A stretch of 64,000 bases of DNA from Ecdyonurus torrentis (Eukaryota; Arthropoda; Insecta; Ephemeroptera; Heptageniidae): positions 12,110,625 through 12,174,624 of the forward strand of contig OX439131.1 of NCBI GenBank assembly GCA_949318235.1, in the 5' to 3' direction. The translations under genes were made by a program, and so were the position numbers. Within the stretch, counting starts at the first letter, position 1, and every line of letters starts with the position of its first letter. The notes beneath the pieces are model-generated. The model was not told where the DNA came from. It saw only the letters and a list, made by a program, of their open reading frames with translations, and searched no databases. Positions 4,401 through 63,908 of the stretch are shown here, in pieces.

Positions 4401-7400
4401 CCCATCAAATCAAGAAAATGCAGACCAAAAGTAAAGAATTATTGTCATATATTTTGCAAAGCACTTTTTAATATAACAAATTGTATAAGCAAATAATAAT
4501 CAAAGAAAAGGATAGGAAAAACCAACAAGCGCCTTACCACGATGAGGTCCGTAGCTTGCTGAAAATCTTGATGGCTTGTTTTACACAAATATTTACAAGT
4601 TAAAACTAGAGTACTCTAGAAGGGGGGAGTATACGCGATCCAGCAGAATTTTTAAAGCCCTTTCATTGGCTGTTGAAATCGAAAATTCAAATCTGATTGG
4701 CTGGTATGCCCAAGAATTTCATTGTTTTCAGTCAATGTTATTTAATTGGGGGTTTTTTGGTTCTGAAAATGACCGTAAGTAATGGGGAAAAATGAGATTT
4801 TGAACACTCATAAAATTTTACAAAAACGTTGTCACATTATGAAACTTTCACAGATGAAACTTTATTATTTGGCCAAAAAAATTACATAAATTCAAAAGTC
4901 GTAATAATTCGCAAATACCGTTATTTACTGTTTATTTACTTTATTTATGTTCTCTTTTTCGAGAACGCTGTAGTTTTCAAGCAAGCACAAGATTTTTGAG
5001 TTTGTTTACATTTTATTCTTCATTGTTGGAGCGCATTAGCCAATGAGCGTTGAGTATTGATTTTCAAAATATGATATTTTTAAAGCTCAACAAAATAAAA
5101 TTTTTAGTAAACTGAGGGTTTTGAAATTTTAGACATAAAATGGCCATAAAACGAAGTTTGTTTTGTGAAAATTTCGTTGCTGTAACTTCTTTTGTTCAAT
5201 AGTTATGACGTTTCAAAATCGCGATTTTTCCGATTACTTACGCGATTTTTCGTGATCAAAAAACCCCAACTAAGGGTGCGCGTATACTCCCCCCTTCTAG
5301 AGTACTCTAGTTTTAACTTGTAAATATTTGTGTAAAACAAGCCATCAAGATTTCCAACAAGTACGGACCTCATCGTGGTAAGGCGCTTGTTGGTTTCTCC
5401 TATCCTTTTCTTTGATTATCAATTCAAACCGAAATGGTTTTAACCTTACCTAATTAATTAGATGAATTACATGAATTAATTAACGTTTGTAACTATTGTC
5501 AATATTAAAGAAAAGGATAGAATAACCAGCAAGGGCCTTACCACAGTAGAAGTTCTATGGAGAGGTCGAAGTCTCGCATGGCACAGTGTTTTGTTATAAA
5601 AAAGTTCATTTTATAACTGAGAGCTTTCGTCATATATTAATGACATTATCAATCAAAGAAGAAAATTACTTGAGCACATCACTGAGCAGTGTCTTGTCTT
5701 GTCTTGTCTTGTCTTGTCTTGTCTTGTCTTGTCTTGTCTTGTCTTGTCTTGTCTTGTCTTGTCTTGTCTTGTCTTGTCTTGTCTTGTCTTGTCTTGTCTT
5801 GTCTTGTCTTGTCTTGTCTTGTCTTGTCTTGTCTTGTCTTGTCTTGTCTTGTCTTGTCTTGTCTTGTCTTGTCTTGTCTTGTCTTGTCTTGTCTTGTCTT
5901 GTCTTGTCTTGTCTTGTCTTGTCTTGTCTTGTCTTGTCTTGTCTTGTCTTGTCTTGTCTTGTCTTGTCTTGTCTTGTCTTGTCTTGTCTTGTCTTGTCTT
6001 GTCTTGTCTTGTCTTGTCTTGTCTTGTCTTGTCTTGTCTTGTCTTGTCTTGTACAAGACAAGACACTGCTCAGTGATGTGCTCAAGTAATTTTCTTCTTT
6101 GATTGATAATGTCATTAATATATGACGAAAGCTCTCAGTTATAAAATGAACTTTTTTATAACAAAACACTGTGCCATGCGAGACTTCGACCTCTCCATAG
6201 AACTTCTACTGTGGTAAGGCCCTTGCTGGTTATTCTATCCTTTTCTTTAATATTGATCCTAACCGCGATGGTTTTTTCCTTAAATTGTTTTGTAACTATT
6301 GAGTTATATTTATTGTTATATGTTGCTGTGCTTGCAACCCCCCGCCTCCTACTAAAATTCCTTTAACTCCTAATTAATTATACATGCATAAAAGTGCTTA
6401 TAGCCTTGCACGCCTAGCGTGCATAGGGCCGTGCATAACGGCTTGAGACAATATATGGCATGATATATATATTTTTCAAATATATATATATATTTTTTTT
6501 TAAACCACTATCGCCATTTTAGATTTTCAGTTGATGCTGCTGCCTGGCGCCAACTTTCATTTGGTTTCTCCCTATCAATTTTAACGTCACATATGTTTGT
6601 CCATACCGCGATGGTACCTTTCCTTTTCCTAAATATAATTAATTACATGTATAAACAAATAATATTAAGTTAAAAGAAATCATTGTATTGTAATTGGATA
6701 TGAATAAATGAAAAGATATATGTAGTATAATGCTGTTGTCCACTAACCTTCTTTACCTATTAAATATTTAAAATATTTCTTTTTTTTTTCTAACTACAGT
6801 TGTACTGGAGGTATTAGGAAGAGAATTAAAATTATTTGAAGAAAACAAACACATCATGAAAGCTCTTATATCATGTGCGGACTTGCAAATATGCGAGGAA
6901 GGAAAAGTAAAACCTCCAACTACCTCAGAAGTTGTCTCTCCAAATTGTACTCTGCATCTTTGTGGGGAGGTAATATAAATTATAGTAAATAAATAATAAC
7001 CAAACTTTACTTATAAGCATAAACTAAATAAGTAAAGGCGTCTGACGAAAGAATCATAATTTATTTTTTTAATTCTGTTTAACGTGTTTTATTGCTTATT
7101 TTTTCCTCAGCATACGTCTGGTAAACCCTCTCAGCGCAAAGAAAAACTAATTGTAGAAATAAGTAAATTGGAGGCAATCACCAGTGCACCTGGTTATAAA
7201 CAGAAAGCAGCAGAACATGTGCAGCAAGCTCATCAGGATAAGGTTTATTATAATTATATATATATATATATATATTTATTATTATTTTTTTTTTCTATCA
7301 AACCTCTAGGCGAGGTACAACTTATGCTCGTTATTTACATATTTACACATATTACACATAATTAAAAACTCAAAAGATCAATATTTCCGTGCTTTCCTAT

Positions 7401-11599: not shown

Positions 11600-23533
<11,934 letters not shown>

Positions 23534-26843: not shown

Positions 26844-27071
26844 ATATCGATCTTGTTGCGAAAAAAAGGCCTATCTCGTTTTTTGTCAGTGGAAGCAAAA
26901 GGCGTATCTCGTATTTTGTCAGTGGAAGCAAAAGGCCTATCTCGAGCGCTATCGCCATAACGTTCGGGAACGAGATAGGCCTTTTGCTTCCACTGACAAA
27001 ATATGAGATACGCCTTTTGCTTCCACTGACAAAAAACGAGATATGCCTTTTGTTCGCAATAAGATCGATAT
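26844..27071. mobile_element. Word-repeat foldback element, copy 1
   Basis: Ends ATCGATCTTGTTGCGAAA and TTCGCAATAAGATCGAT. Each arm is about three units of a 33-bp repeat (GGCCTATCTCG, then TTTTGTCAGTGGAAGC). The centre is GAGCGCTATCGCCATAACG then TTCGGGAA. Copies at 31276 and 45353 share ends, and the latter shares the centre, but the units differ. A further arm to the left (26702-26843) is shared with 22771-23095. Confidence 0.8.
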
Positions 27072-28821: not shown

Positions 28822-31800
28822 CTAAAGATCTCCTTTGCGATCACTAGTTTTTTGTGTCTCGTCCTGCATAATACGATAGTATTTGGTAATAGCAGGTCGA
28901 TAATAGTAAGCCTGGTAATCTTGGCGCTCGTTCATCTTCTCTCTTACTTGTTTCTCAAGTTTCCTAAACAATCAAACAAAAAGTTACATGCTGCAATAAT
29001 TTAAATAATAGAGAAGAAGTCTTACCTCAGCCTGCGTTTCTCATCCTCCTCATAAAGCAAATGCATGTATTTCTCATACTCTTGCTGGGGGCTGTTATAC
29101 ACATATCGAGCAAAGAATCTCTGGATTGGATGCTGAAAATTCAGGAGAAAGTAAAGAATACATAAGCAAGTAATTATTCACTTTATCTATAAAGTCAAAT
29201 TTTGCTTTTCCTACCCCAGTGTCAACATACAAAGCGATGTAACTAGCGTGAATCACGATACTATGTGCAGTCGGTAGGCGTAGTGCTCTCGCGATCTTTC
29301 TAGAGTTGGGGAACTCTGGGAAGTGAGGGAGGACACTATTGCTTGCTGGCTGCCTGTCTTACACCCCTCTTAGACACGATTTTATATTACAGTGTGAGGA
29401 TGAGAGGTTTTAAACAGCAAGCCGAGTTTGCGAGCGCGATTTTAACCAATCAGCGCGTGCAGCTGCGGGGGCATCGCGTATAAAAACGCGACTGCCACTT
29501 GCTTCCTCAGCTCAGTCAGTTAGCAGATGTGGTGTGAGCCATCTCTAGCTGTACAGAGCTCTCTGCCGAGCCTTACTGATGAGTCCTAGGTAAAGGATGA
29601 AACCGGTCTAAGGCAAAGAGTAAGTCTGATGCTGTTTTATAATGTTGTGTCTTTGACGGAGTGTGAGAACGTGAGATGCTAGGCACATCGTATTTTATTT
29701 TGACACTATACCTCCATCCCTTTAACGTCTACTTTTTAACTAGCTAAAGCTAGAATATTTGATCCCTAGTCCCAATTTACTATTTAAATTAGAGAATTTT
29801 CGCGTTTTATTAATTTTCAATTCAACGTGCTCTAATCTCTACTAACTATTTTCTAAATATTTTTTTAAACTTATTTATCTATAAAGTCAAATTGAGGTGC
29901 ATTCAAATAATTTGTCAATTCAAGAATGTGCTGCAAACATTAATGCTGTTCGTAAACCCTGTTCTCTTGCACCAAAAATTGCGCATTCCATTTGAATAAC
30001 CATAGGCGATCGTCATTTTTGGTGCAGAGAACAGGGTTTACGAACAGCATTACTTACTATTACAACCCTTCATTTAAAAATAATAATACATAATAGGCTA
30101 CATAATACATAATAATGTAATAGGCTAATAATAATAATAAAGGTTTTGAGTAATCCTCACAGGTATTAACTTTTATTTTAGTAAATTATAGTAAGCAGGT
30201 CACAGGAAAGAATGTAAAAAACAAATAACATACCACAATGAGATCCATAACTATTAGTTAACGGTATAATGATTATTTAAGAAACGGGGTTAGATGGATG
30301 TCACCCTTAAAACATCTTAAAGGGCTGTAAGCTGCAACCTCTAGTTAAAACTTAGTTATATATTTTTTAATTGTTGCAACAATCAAAATAACAACTTAAC
30401 TACGGGTTAATTAGTTAGTTAGCTTTGCAGCTTACAGGGTCAGTCAATGTATTATTACGGTATATATTTGTGCAAACTGTGCCATCAAGATCTTCACCTA
30501 GCTACAGACCTCTTTGTGGTGCAAGAGGCTCTTTTTGTTTTTCCTATTCTTTGCTTTGTTAATACATCCAAACTGGAGTAGTTTTTAATTTCCTTTAATT
30601 AAATTAATAAATATTAAGGACAAATCGACTATACGATGTAAGATGATTGATAATTAAATAGATTTGATAGAAAAACACATAGATTATAGATTAGGAAAAT
30701 TGGGGAATGGAAGATAGTATGCATAGCGAGTGCTCACTGACAGAGACGCCATGGTAGAGAAAAATTCCTAACCTAGGCCGAAAAGAATTTTACAGCATAT
30801 GTACTAGTCACTGATATTGGTCTGTAGAAATCAAGAGTTCTCTTCCAGACTACTAGGCTGGAGGTACGGCAAGGATTTCTCTCTTCTTGCAATGCTTATG
30901 AGTCCCAGTAAGTAATGTAAGTAGATAACTATGTAATCCAGAGAGGATTCTCGCTGAAAAGTACTGGTCAGCTGGAGACGTGTATTGCGGGTCAAAATAA
31001 CATTGATCAAATGGGCAACAAAATATAACTTCCAGGATAAAATAAATTAAAAGCAACAGAAAATTGAGCAACGATATTCTCTTATTTGGATTACCTACCA
31101 ATAGAAATACCTTACCAGTAAGGACGGAACAGCTGTCTATGGCTAGAGATGAGGTGCTGAAAATGACAGTGTGCTACACGCAATGCTCAAGATGCCATCT
31201 AAACCAAATGCAAGCCAAAACTACCTAATGCTCGCTTTTTATACAGCAATAGACACAATAGGAACAGCTATTGGTATATCGATGGTGTTGCGGCTAAACC
31301 ACGCTTCTACATTTAGCGTGTTTCCTTACTTTCACGCATCTACGTTTATCGCGATAGCCATAAAAACGCGTATCTACATTTATCGCGACAACAGGTAAAC
31401 ACATTTCTACATAGGAAAACAGGTGTAGAAATGTGTTTACCTGTTGTCGCGATAAATGTAGATACGCATTTTCATGGCTATCGCGATAAACGTAGATGCG
31501 TGAAAGAAAGGAAACACGCTAAAAGTAGAAGCATGGTTTAGCCGCAACACCATCGATATGCTTAATTAATTAATGCTATTTACATTGATTTTTTTGGGCC
31601 TGGGTTAGAAATTATTTTCTGTGCCATGGCATCCCTGTCAGTCTAAGTTCATTACTATCTCCCTTTCTCCATTTTTTGTTTCTAATCTATCGATATGTGT
31701 TTTTCTATCAAATCTTTTAATTTATTATTCTGCTCTTGGATGCTTACTCTGTGATATTCCCAGAACTTCGGAACATATCCTTCAGGAGCCTCTGCCAGTT

Positions 31801-38938: not shown

Positions 38939-39404
38939 TGATTTTGCACATTATTACATTTATATTATATTTGAGCAGGAAAATATTAATATACAGGTAA
39001 TATTATAGGCTATACTTCATAGTTATCAGCAATGGATCATAAAAATATTAAAGCACATTACATTGAAATTTAATAGAATGCAAAAATGCACCAATTTTCA
39101 TTGGTTGTATCTTTGATTTTGTTCTTTAAAATCATATAAATTATTAGTATAAAAGATTTGATCAAACAAAACATAACATGGAGGAATTTTTCCTAATCTA
39201 TCTATGTGCGTTTCTATCAAATCTTTAATAATTATCAACTATTGCATAGACGATTTTTTCCTAATATTTATTATTGTATAAGTTTTTTATGTTACTGTGA
39301 TCTTCAAATCAAATAGTTATTATTAAAATTTGTCTTCATTTGCTATGATTTAGTACTTTAGTAGTTATGCCATTAAATTAAATAAATATTAAATTTCTTG
39401 AAGA

Positions 39405-44119: not shown

Positions 44120-46757
44120 ACAGTGGCAGAGATAGAGAGCAAACGAAAGACAGGTTGCGTTGGGCAGCACGAGGAGTGTTTGACTTGCTGGCGAAGCAGC
44201 TCGAGCTGATTACCTGAGCGCGATCATAGAAGCGGCCAGCGACTTCTTCTCTTCATCGTCTTCTTTTTCCGAACTTCGTGCCTAACATCTCAATATTATT
44301 TACATAAATAGCGAGATCTCTCGTTTACTCATAATATTTTGTGGCTCGCAAAAATGGATCAATTTTGAATGGTAAAATTTTATTGTAAGTCCACTGTACA
44401 TTTACTATACTAAAGATTTTTTCCTGAACTTTTCCTACATTCCTACTCAATATGACTGCTGTAAGGTGCATCAGATGCGCACACACAGTACGGGTATATG
44501 CTTTAGAGACAATGTGTGCGACTCTGAAGGAAGTAGGGTTTTAGGGAATATTTTTACTCTACTAGGGAGAAGGGAAGATATCTGAGACAAAGATTATGAA
44601 TGTAATCAGTTATTATTTTTACATACCTATTTATTGAGACATCAAGGAACCTTAACTTAGGAATCATTGGCCAGGGTTTTGCAGTAGTAGATGTACATCC
44701 TGAACGCTCCTTCCTCATTTCTTTAACGTAACGATCTCTCACATTCCTCCATTTGGCTCTACAGACCTCCGCTGTAAACAACCATGAATAATGTTACTGG
44801 TACACTGATTATGGCATGCTGAGAACCACAGCTGGCAGATTTAAATTATGTACTGTATCTGTGTTTTACAATTCATTGTCTGTTTAAGTGAGACATAATA
44901 TGTAATGTAATATATTGCACAAATTAGCAATTCAAACTTTGTTTAAGCGTACACAAAACCAAGTATGGTAATTGTACTAGTTATCGGCATGCTTGCCACA
45001 ATTATCAGCAGGTGTTTCTGCTTTTTTATAATATGTTTCACTTATTTGAGAGTTTTGAAATTTTTACACAAAAGCGATTGCTAAAATTTAAAAGCTCCAA
45101 AATCAGTGGAAGGTATTTAAAAAAAATACAACTGCCGATAGCTATATACTGAAGTACCATTACCATAACAGTATGTATGTACAGTATTTCAATATAGAAT
45201 CAGGAACTTTATAATAGCTGCCAGCAGAGGCGTATGCAGGGGGGGGGGGATTTGGGTCCAGACTCCCCCCCCCCCATCAGGTCTGAAAAAGCATGGGCAA
45301 AGGGGGTGGTTTCCCCCCTTTGACTATGCTCACTATAGGCTAATGAATGCAAGTCGATGTTGTTGCGAAAAAAATGTGTAAGTTGTTTTTTGGCACGCTA
45401 AGCAATATGTGTATCTCGTATTTTGTCACGCTAAGCAATATGTGTAAGTCGAGCGCCATCTCCATAACGTTCGGGAACAACTTACACATTTTGCTTCGCG
45501 TGACAAAATGCGAGATACACATATTGCTTAGCGTGACAAAAAACGACTTACACATTTTGCTTCGCCTGACAAAATACGAGTTACACATTTTTTTTGCAAC
45601 AACGTCAAAGTACAGTACATACATAAAATAATATGTGTATGTAAATACATACTTATACAATGTATGATTATGTACTATATGTATCATACATACATGCATA
45701 TGTACAGCTTTGGCCAAAAGTTTCCGAACGGGGCAGCGGCGGCCGCTGCGTTTTCTCATAAAGATAACATAGTGTGGTTGCGGGTTGCCTATGCAAATCC
45801 TTCGGGAACTTTTGGACAGAGCTGTACATACGGTACCAAGAATATGTGTACATATGTGTAGGAAAAAATATTTACAACATAAATATATGTACATAGCATA
45901 CATAATCAACAACCTAATAGTGCATTTATATATTTATGTAAAATACATACATATGTATGTATGTACCTAATGTGTATTCACGTTTGAGCCAACAATCTGG
46001 ACAATGATACCATATTATATTACCCAGTATCAAGTCGATTTACATACATAGTTTTTGTGCATACCGGTATATGTACATATATGTATTTTACATAAATATG
46101 CGTACATATATATTATACTTTTCTAATATTAAAAATGATAAAGTAGTTTCTCTGTTTAATAGACAGTATATAGTATGGACAGTGTACATACTATTGCTTG
46201 ATCATATCAGTGTGTACAAGATACATATTGTACATATGTATAAAACATCATTTGTTATTGTATGATGTTGACACAGCAAAATCCTTCCCATTCTTACCAG
46301 ACCTGTTTTTAACCAATTTATAGTTATCAAATACAATTTTGCTTCCATAAATTGTCTTCTATCAAAGCATAGTAATTATCTAGTCTGTCATCTACTAGAA
46401 TAATTGTAGAACAAACTTGTTCTTAACTCGGGAAACACAAAAACAAATACACTTACCATCCATGCCAAGGCGTCCCCCGATTTCTCGCCAACATCTTTCT
46501 TTGAGCCGCACGTTCTTGTAATCCTTGCAAAATACATTATACAAACATGGATATTGTTTAACCTCACGCGCGAGATATTCCTGAATGTTTCCATACATTG
46601 TAGGGTCATTATCTTTTAAGCATGGCTCTTCCATGGCTTTAACAGGCAACAGAATTCCACTTGACCGCCCGCTCGACCCATAAACGACAGCCATTATGAA
46701 AACATAACGTTCACGGTCATTGGAGGAATATTTTTTCATGCATGCTGGTTGGTTCAT
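40613..46757 (-). CDS. MADF-domain protein (putative DNA-binding regulator)
   Basis: Four exons on the minus strand: 46757-46457, 44771-44627, 41371-41310, 40815-40613, in frame to 236 residues. The MADF domain (Myb/SANT-like, DNA binding) spans about residues 54-145: IQEYLAREVKQYPCLYNVFC, KDYKNVRLKERCWREIGGRL, then CRAKWRNVRDRYVKEMRK and KPWPMIPKLRFLD, giving the spaced tryptophans and the RDRY motif of the family. The rest is low-complexity Thr/Val/Ser. The frame is open upstream to a GTG, but the first ATG is at 46757; an internal ATG at 46694 is a second option. A strong donor (GTG|GTGAGT at 40651/40650) lies inside the last exon, so longer isoforms, perhaps with a BESS domain, could continue downstream. 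The specific orthologue is not recognised. Intron 2 holds a four-level transposon nest. Confidence 0.8.
41812..42544. mobile_element. Hairpin element, family A copy 10, with 14-bp target duplication and captured coding fragment
   Basis: Starts TCAATTTAAGG, tag CCATCGCGGTTAGGATCAAC, then AAAGAAAAGGATAG and CCAGCAAGGGCCTTACC, mirrored at the right end by GGTAAGGCCCTTGCTGG and CTATCCTTTTCTT. TTACCATAGTATAA is duplicated at 41798-41811 and 42545-42558. The centre is not palindromic: it holds a purine-rich stretch (42060-42190) and a protein fragment on the minus strand. Confidence 0.85.
42204..42462 (-). pseudogene. Fragment resembling a Penelope-like element GIY-YIG endonuclease domain
   Basis: Two minus-strand frames that overlap read KARDRMNGHRQSVKNN, KPVAEHAASHGI and, after a frameshift near 42275, ELAYQHILRSRKAQG then GLNIR. 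This order (Arg-rich helix with GHR, then KPV-EH, then a terminal GLN) is what I know from GIY-YIG domains at the C-terminus of Penelope-like reverse transcriptases. The GIY and YIG strands themselves are missing. It fills the core of hairpin copy 10. Confidence 0.55.
45353..45607. mobile_element. Word-repeat foldback element, copy 3
   Basis: Ends GTCGATGTTGTTGCGAAAA and TTTTGCAACAACGTC; centre GAGCGCCATCTCCATAACG then TTCGGGAA, the same as in 26844-27071. Each arm has about three 33-bp units built from ATGTGTAAGTCG and CACGCTAAGCAAT instead of the words of the other copy. In MADF gene intron 1. Confidence 0.8.
45705..45824. mobile_element. Tc1/mariner-type MITE, 120 bp
   Basis: Ends CAGCTTTGGCCAAAAGTTTC and the complement CTTTTGGACAGAGCTG, flanked by TA. 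The GGCCAAAAGT word is common in mariner/Tc1 ends. The centre includes GCAGCGGCGGCCGCTGC. Confidence 0.75.
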
Positions 46758-61487: not shown

Positions 61488-63908
61488 TTCAGTTTTTTTA
61501 ATAACTATAAATATTCATGAATTATGCATGAATACACACACATTATGCATTTTTTACATTAACACTGCAAATTGAAAGATTTTTGTTGTATGCACAGTAA
61601 ATTACGTGACATAAAGAAAAAAATGCATGTATAAAAATTAAAATAATGTATTGTTGAATAATAAATTTGTATTTATTTCCCCTTTAATAAAATTAAATAA
61701 ATAGTGATTCGAGTAATGAAAATCTTTAGAGATGAAAAAGATTGTTAAAATGTTATTTTTATGGCCAGAATTATTTGCTCAAGTATATTATGTATTTTTT
61801 TAATTCTTATAAAATTAAAATAATTCTATATAAGTGCCACACAAACTTTTGAATGGAATAATACTATGCAAACTTATAGAAGAATTGCTATACTTATTGT
61901 TAGTACAGCAAAAAGATCCGAATGCGTAATTTTTTTAATTGTATATGTTTCTTTTTATTGTAAGTTGCAAATAATAATAATAATAATAATAATAAAATAA
62001 ATAAATAAATAAATAAAAAACATTAAAAATTAGTATCAGTTACTCACATTTTTGTTTTATCAAATATTATATATTATGCAGTTTTACACTCCAATTGCCT
62101 GTTTTGTCTTTATTATAAAAGTAAAGCTACAATCTCTGACTTAAATATTATGTAAATAATTCAAATTATTTTTAATAACTATTTACCAGAAACTCCAATA
62201 TACTCATTAATGCTGTTCGTAAACCCTGTTCTCTGCACCAAAAATGACGATCGCCTATGGTTATTCAAATGGAATGCGCATTTTTTGGTGCAAGAGAACA
62301 GGGCTTACGAACAGCATTATTATTATAAGAATTATGCTCTTATGGTGCAGCCTTATATTATTTCACTTTAAAAACTAGTTTGAATTTTTTATAGAAATTT
62401 TTAATAACATGCACTTTAGATTATACATACATATAAATTTTGTGCACGTCAACTCTTCACGAGAATAAAAATAATAATGGAATTTATTAAATGTTAACTC
62501 AATTGATATCGTATCTTGTGGTCTCTTTTGCACAAGGAAATCCCTTACTGATTACTCATGGCATGGCATATCATATATATTTTTTTTATTATTGTTTCAG
62601 CTATATTTATTATTTAATAAAAATATTATAGTTTAACGTACAGGAGATTAGCAATAATATTTTCAATTATCTCTTCTTAAACCCTCGATATGTTGCAAAA
62701 CTTATTAGTCTTCTTGTCAAGTTTATTTATGGTACTCATGTGACAATAAATTATATTACAAATAAAAACGTTAACGAGAGTTTATCAGTTGTCGATAAAT
62801 TTTATGTGATTTAAACCTTTTCTTAAAAGTATTTCAATTATAGCAATAAAACAATAACTTCGTTTAAAAATTTAGTACTATGTTTTTTTATACCAGTTTT
62901 CAAAAAAAAAAAAATATATATATATACAAAAAAAATGTCAATTTATAATAGATGCATTAAAAATAGAGACAAGCAAAATAATAGTTACACTTTATTTTAA
63001 TAGACTATTTCATTTTTTTCTTAATTTTATAATTATTATTTTCATTGAATATCCTTTTTTTAATGATTTTGAACTTGATTTTTAATCGACACTATTTTTT
63101 TTTTGTTTTTGTTTTTTTTTACCATAACGAACACGGTATTTGTTTATATATTTTGGAGTCAAATGATATGAAAAACAAAGGATTTACTGTCCTTTCCTGA
63201 ATAAAGCGGAAGGAACATTTGCACGCATTTTAAAGTGCTTCCGATTAGAGGATGAATTAAAATTTTCCACATTTTAAAAGTCGAAGGCTGCTAAAATATA
63301 AGTTAAAGTAACGCTGTGTTTGTACTCAATTGAGCATATCTTTTATTTATATATACTTCAAAATACAAAATAATTATTATTATATATTTAGCTGGTTATT
63401 GCCTTGAAGTTTGTTGGCCTTCTTATATTTAGTACTCAAAATTATCAAATAATTAAAATGGCAACAATGAAGTTATTTTGCGTGTTCTGTTGTTAAATAT
63501 GGTATCATGAACTAAATTTTCGTATCATCAGTTGTTTATCTTTCGATGACAGCCATCAACCATTCCATTTTAATATTCATAATAAAAATTATAATTTATA
63601 ATAATATGCAGCGCTTTTTGTAATTTTTTTTTTTTTTAAATACACAAACAAAACATATGAAATGCTTCAATTTTATTCATATAAATTGCGTTTCATTATT
63701 TTTTTAAGATTTTATATATATAATTGCCTTGAAATTAGAGTATTTAAAATAATAGCATGCAAAATATGAAGAAGATATACTTTTACTGTCTTGCTATTTT
63801 TCAATAGTTAATTTTTTTTCTGCTCATTATTGTAAATGATTATAGTATGTCATTGTAACAACGTTATAAATAAAAGAGTAAAGAGCACAATTAAATTATA
63901 ACATTTCG

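Follow-up and report, generated by a model that had tools for sequence, protein, structure and literature searches.

A hammerhead motif in an NDUFB5 intron of the mayfly Ecdyonurus torrentis lies in a young insertion that is probably a retrozyme-like element

Animal retrozymes, as described in the portions of the reports consulted here, carry type I hammerheads, have target-site duplications of more than 4 bp and give self-paired RNA (PMC7229834; PMC4918200); the duplication of the Nematostella retrozyme is 15 bp long (PMC4918200). Hammerheads also occur in the pseudo-LTRs of Penelope-like elements, which cut DNA that is AT-rich (PMC11167929; PMC7761336). According to the consulted part of one of these reports, a Penelope-like element preferred AT-rich DNA in vitro and its hammerhead cleaved only when protein was added, and hammerhead mutants of one such element had no effect on insertion in vitro (PMC11167929), a result that would speak against a need for cleavage should the element described below move likewise. 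In the axolotl Amex1 hammerhead, the monomer with a single-pair helix III cleaves weakly, 6% in an hour, and the dimer is far better, as given in the section of that study seen here (PMC7229834).

The locus analysed here lies in a 64,000-nucleotide stretch of the Ecdyonurus torrentis genome (assembly GCA_949318235.1, contig OX439131.1, forward strand, positions 12,110,625 to 12,174,624), called the window below and numbered from its first base. Within it, the 672-bp segment 29202–29873, which contains a hammerhead motif, probably represents a recent insertion of a retrozyme-like retroelement that is not autonomous (copy 1; Table 1). The insertion sits in an intron of NDUFB5, the bordering exons of which match PF09781 (NDUF_B5) on the minus strand with 88.5 bits (E 5.8e-25). 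As the motif is on the plus strand, this confirms the first-pass annotation, which had placed the ribozyme in an NDUFB5 intron and antisense to the gene. Judged by eye from its splice sites, the intron runs from about 29133 to 31747, and the upstream exon ends near 31748. The position in this intron looks incidental. The same intron holds a palindrome of about 112 bp (29941–30052) that resembles a MITE, with perfect arms of 27 nt and 12 nt and a 96%-identical match at 62200–62319; Rfam mir-504 matches it on either strand, below threshold in each case.

Table 1. Positions of the features of the two element copies, the hammerhead motif and the host gene in the window
Feature	Position	Strand	Remarks
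Copy 1, non-coding retrozyme-like element	29202-29873	+	672 bp between direct repeats; similarity to copy 2
Target-site duplication, left copy	29182-29201	.	20 bp, identical to 29874-29893
Target-site duplication, right copy	29874-29893	.	20/20 against left copy
Terminal stem of foldback	29218-29249 with 29676-29707	+	27 pairs
Second stem	29357-29399 with 29625-29668	+	36 pairs
Putative promoter	29446-29485	+	CCAAT 29446-29450, TATAAAA 29479-29485; by eye
Initiator-like TCAGTC	29512-29517	+	by eye
Hammerhead ribozyme (motif)	29561-29620	+	type I topology
Outer stem I	29561-29564/29617-29620	+	CTCT/AGAG, 4 bp
Inner stem I	29570-29575/29609-29614	+	GCCTTA/TAAGGC, 6 bp
Core box CTGATGA	29576-29582	+	
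Stem II	29583-29587/29594-29598	+	GTCCT-AGGTAA-AGGAT, 5 bp
GAA	29599-29601	+	
Palindromic helix III ACCGGT	29602-29607	+	pairing between two molecules expected
C17	29608	+	predicted cleavage between 29608 and 29609
Copy 2, left arm	18767-18983	-	old, CpG-depleted
Copy 2, right arm	17313-17716	-	broken hammerhead core at 17540-17584
NDUFB5 exon bordering intron	29026-29132	-	PF09781 with next exon; splice sites by eye

The motif has the features that define a type I hammerhead, with the core CUGANGA, GAAA, an NUH triplet and three helices of which stem I is open. All of the parts named at first (CTGATGA, a 5-bp stem II, GAAA, ACCGGT and a stem I of 6 plus 4 bp, which encloses an internal loop) were recovered base for base and in the right order. 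The description of the hammerhead as intact holds for the core, which is complete in sequence, and reaches no further than that. The base of stem II is a G.U pair; the usual hammerhead consensus at this place is G–C.

The covariance-model check that had been proposed for the motif ended below threshold: the Rfam Hammerhead_1 model (RF00163) matched 29570–29614 with 25.1 bits and an E-value of 0.0036 in 2.5 kb, short of the gathering score of 34. The loopless helix III may have lowered this score. Scanned with Rfam at the gathering threshold, the whole window gave U2 snRNA alone and no hammerhead, and a whole-window scan by E-value gave Hammerhead_3 as the only hammerhead entry (22.1 bits, E 3.9). 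A descriptor search for hammerheads on both strands of the window had the motif in Table 1 as its single match. In sequence simulated from the dinucleotide transition frequencies of the window, equally strong motifs (inner stem I of at least 6, stem II of at least 5 and stem III of at least 3 bp) arose 5 times in 505.6 Mb, both strands included, or about 6e-4 per 64 kb. The strength of the motif is thus above chance for one window; given this rate and the sub-threshold Rfam score, the motif alone is inconclusive in a scan of very many windows. The element in which it sits is better evidence than the motif itself.

Other repeats and RNA-like sequences are scattered through the window. The U2 snRNA match (96.4 bits) occupies 1–137 and is cut by the window start. 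Two copies of a 78-bp unit at 507–665 contain CTGATGA and CCGAAA; a second hammerhead was considered in this tandem and rejected, as a stem I proved impossible by hand and neither the descriptor nor the Rfam scans gave a hammerhead there. Arrays of 33-bp units at 26864–27052 and 45374–45591 seem to be made of inverted versions of each other, and the former region matches Rfam MIR2646 with 136 bits, which falls short of the cut-off of 245. A perfect array of the pentanucleotide TGTCT, with 72.6 copies, occupies 5690–6052.

Predicted energies bear on how the ribozyme would act. The lone 60-base ribozyme is predicted to misfold at −16.2 kcal/mol, compared with −13.0 for the active fold without helix III and −6.6 with a single-pair helix III, so that the best monomer fold is more stable than the active monomer by 3 kcal/mol or more. 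When two molecules share a helix III of 6 bp and exchange their stems I, the active fold (−33.5 kcal/mol) comes close to the best dimer fold (−34.0 kcal/mol). On these modelled energies, it is plausible that the ribozyme works as a dimer through its palindromic helix III. The first-pass annotation had gone further in stating that stem III can pair only between two molecules; a dimer is made plausible by the energies and by the newt-type precedent, and ‘only’ was too strong, because a 1-bp helix III that closes a CCGG tetraloop is possible. The closest likeness in this respect is to the satellite hammerheads of newts and axolotl (HHR_Amex1), which, in the text consulted, share the one-pair helix III with a palindromic tetraloop (here A-CCGG-T) and the action as a dimer (PMC7229834). 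Those hammerheads sit in amphibian tandem repeats of about 330 bp, and the present motif differs from them in a stem II that begins with G.U (PMC7229834, as far as consulted). Dimer action has also been proposed for repeat-type hammerheads with a palindromic helix or loop III, for example in Aedes, where the dimer helix III is described in the part seen as 10 bp long, compared with 6 bp here (PMC3088659).

The limits of the element are taken from a perfect, AT-rich direct repeat of 20 bp; in 1,484 control pairs of stretches drawn from the window, no exact repeat was longer than 12 bases. The limits first given for it, 29218–29707, turned out to mark an inverted repeat (TGTCAA...TTGACA) that lies inside the element and forms the terminal stem of the predicted foldback. 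The GC content of copy 1 is 43%. No long direct repeat is present inside the element (29000–30300 examined), which is therefore without LTRs. BLAST of 29101–30300 against the window disclosed no tandem unit beside copy 1, in keeping with the single hammerhead match, and located a further copy (copy 2), split in two, on the minus strand: 17315–17712, 79% identical to 29441–29836, and 18769–18990, 76% identical to 29195–29413. The similarity covers about 29202–29415 and 29439–29838 of copy 1, of which the last 35 bp have no counterpart in copy 2. A 51-bp stretch on the minus strand at 39047–39097, 78% identical to 29786–29836, may represent a common tail or a fragment and is too short for interpretation. 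Between the arms of copy 2, about 1 kb (17717–18766) interrupts the element; by eye, one stretch of it resembles the C-terminal part of an ORF for a LINE reverse transcriptase, interrupted by stops.

Copy 1 is a young insertion, copy 2 an old one. CpG ratios are 0.91 for copy 1, 0.28 and 0.27 for the two arms of copy 2 and 0.70 for the window as a whole; where copy 1 has a CpG that can be aligned (24 cases), copy 2 shows TG or CA in 18 and retains the CpG in 3. No target-site duplication of copy 2 was found, the longest word common to its flanks being 8 bp. Its hammerhead core (13.7 bits with Rfam) is changed at G12 and A14, so that of the two element copies in the window one, copy 1, has an intact core. 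With two bases of the core broken in copy 2, the comparison does not speak for conservation of the core as such; most of the pairing in stems I and II persists in copy 2.

Set beside the metazoan non-LTR retrozymes, in the features given in the consulted text of PMC7229834, the element likewise has a type I hammerhead, no coding capacity, a GC content below 50%, a duplication of more than 4 bp and no LTRs, and its monomer RNA is predicted to be highly self-paired. Those elements measure about 170–400 nt and form tandem arrays (PMC7229834, same sections), whereas the present one is 672 nt long and is a lone copy at its locus. We therefore liken it to the non-LTR retrozymes without counting it among their typical members. 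With the hammerheads of Penelope-like elements it has in common the setting in a retroelement, a proposed dimer action and an AT-rich target (PMC11167929, in part). Penelope-like hammerheads are described in the portion of PMC7761336 consulted as minimal, without helix III or loop contacts, in contrast to the palindromic helix III and the internal loop of stem I found here.

The inverted repeat of the element is rarely matched by shuffled sequence, its score being reached in 1 of 1,000 shuffles for copy 1 and in none of 1,000 for copy 2. As a circle, copy 1 is predicted to fold at −228.7 kcal/mol, with 63% of its bases paired, against a mean of −173.8 (s.d. 6.8) for dinucleotide shuffles, none of which (0 of 60) was as low. 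Fold strength by itself was set aside as evidence because z was −6 or lower in 5 of 24 random control windows. It is the strand dependence of the fold, not its strength, that sets the element apart: the ribozyme strand reaches a z of about −8.5, compared with −2.8 and −1.7 (two runs) for the opposite strand, which folds at −173.2 kcal/mol. This difference of 55 kcal/mol compares with at most 12 in six control windows, which were picked after the 24-window test as its five strongest folds and one weaker fold, and whose z-scores differ somewhat between strands (for example, −37 and −28, −10 and −6). Folding of the two arms as separate strands gave a weaker picture: copy 1 had z −6.9 for plus and −2.7 for minus (0 of 40 as low in each case), its minus strand thus also folding below the shuffles, and copy 2 folded weakly, with −2.05 for plus (1 of 40 as low) and −1.05 for minus (6 of 40).

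Comparison of the copies points to retention of the pairing. The fold has 213 predicted pairs, and for 173 of them both bases can be aligned in the two copies; 124 of these are unchanged, 31 are changed and still pair, and 18 are broken. When substitutions were permuted among sites with the same base, 33.7 broken pairs were expected (s.d. 3.7), and none of 1,000 permutations was as low as the 18 observed; changed-but-kept pairs were expected to number 22.9, and 8 of 1,000 permutations were as high as the 31 observed. Pairs changed on both sides were not in excess (4, with 2.8 expected). In four stems, there are 12 G.U pairs to 2 A.C mismatches (p 0.013), a count made on a strand-neutral alignment, with the reservation that the stems were drawn from the plus-strand fold.

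We propose that transcription of a retrozyme-like element of this kind would be driven by its own putative CCAAT/TATA promoter or come from read-through. A couple of transcripts, or adjacent units within a multimer, would then pair through ACCGGT with their stems I swapped and be cut after C29608. The resulting 672-nt monomer, from cleavage site to cleavage site, would be circularized by a host RNA ligase and copied at an AT-rich target by a reverse transcriptase borrowed from a LINE or Penelope-like element; no reverse transcriptase or Penelope-like protein was recognized by eye among the 28 ORFs of at least 120 amino acids in the window. If the promoter works, transcription would start about 95 nt before the cleavage site. 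Such a start is inside the element, so that the approximately 300 bp upstream of it would be copied only by way of circular or multimeric RNA. A bolder version, in which the element is an animal retrozyme and a transcription unit of its own, with a Pol II-type promoter, a long RNA rod, a 672-nt circle larger than those of described animal retrozymes and single dispersed copies in place of tandem arrays, is conceivable, and we put it forward tentatively and with considerable doubt.

Several of these observations can be read in other ways. Copy 1 could be a piece of a Penelope-like element, either a solo pseudo-LTR or a non-autonomous derivative, moved directly by an RT/GIY-YIG protein and without a circle. 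The target repeat is AT-rich, and both pseudo-LTR hammerheads and AT-rich cutting are known from such elements in the reports consulted in part (PMC11167929; PMC7761336); their hammerheads are minimal, unlike this motif, in the section of PMC7761336 seen, and no protein of this kind was recognized by eye in the ORF list, so we consider this origin unlikely. The earlier link to retrozymes and Penelope-like elements is nevertheless supported by the 20-bp repeat, the second copy and the strand-dependent fold, which do not decisively separate the two. A chance hammerhead-like motif in an unrelated dispersed repeat, with a fold that serves another purpose or none, would account for the sub-threshold Rfam score and the broken core of copy 2, and at about 6e-4 per window some such motifs are expected across many windows. 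It accords poorly with the place of the motif in a young insertion, on the strand that folds strongly, and with stems I and II that mostly pair in copy 2, and is in our judgement distinctly improbable.

The inverted repeat, present in both copies, might instead represent the termini (29218–29249 and 29676–29707) of a DNA transposon of the MITE or foldback kind, all the more as other foldbacks are common in the window. We regard this as very improbable, given that the similarity between the copies runs past the inverted repeat, by about 130 bp on the right, that the repeat is internal and does not adjoin the 20-bp direct repeat, and that the fold is strand-dependent, unlike those of the six control windows. 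The same ends, TGTCAA...TTGACA, begin with TG and close with CA around a mid-element TATA box, as they might in a solo LTR with a hammerhead like the plant LTR retrozymes; the copies are similar beyond these ends and the duplication lies further out, at 20 bp compared with the 4-bp duplications of plant LTR retrozymes in the portion of PMC7229834 consulted, which leaves this reading hardly credible. A domesticated intronic ribozyme that regulates NDUFB5 would fit the intronic position, and vertebrates have conserved intronic hammerheads (PMC3088659, as far as consulted). With the ribozyme running antisense to the gene inside a young mobile insertion, a function for NDUFB5 is extremely unlikely. 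A recently inserted, retrozyme-like element therefore remains our preferred explanation for copy 1.

Ribozyme-carrying elements of this kind and dimeric hammerheads have already been published; what differs here is the length of 672 nt, the lone copy and the putative promoter. In literature searched by title and the opening of the abstract, we noticed no promoter-bearing animal element of 672 bp. Exact patterns of the element gave 0 matches in viral and other contig collections, a result of little weight from non-animal collections. The existing view, in which the hammerheads of animals are mostly located in selfish retroelements, is unchanged by this locus. With its intact core and perfect target-site duplication, the young copy offers a good test of whether circles made by hammerheads serve as templates for insertion. 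If we have read it rightly, the element would extend the animal retrozymes to a larger, dispersed and perhaps self-transcribing form.
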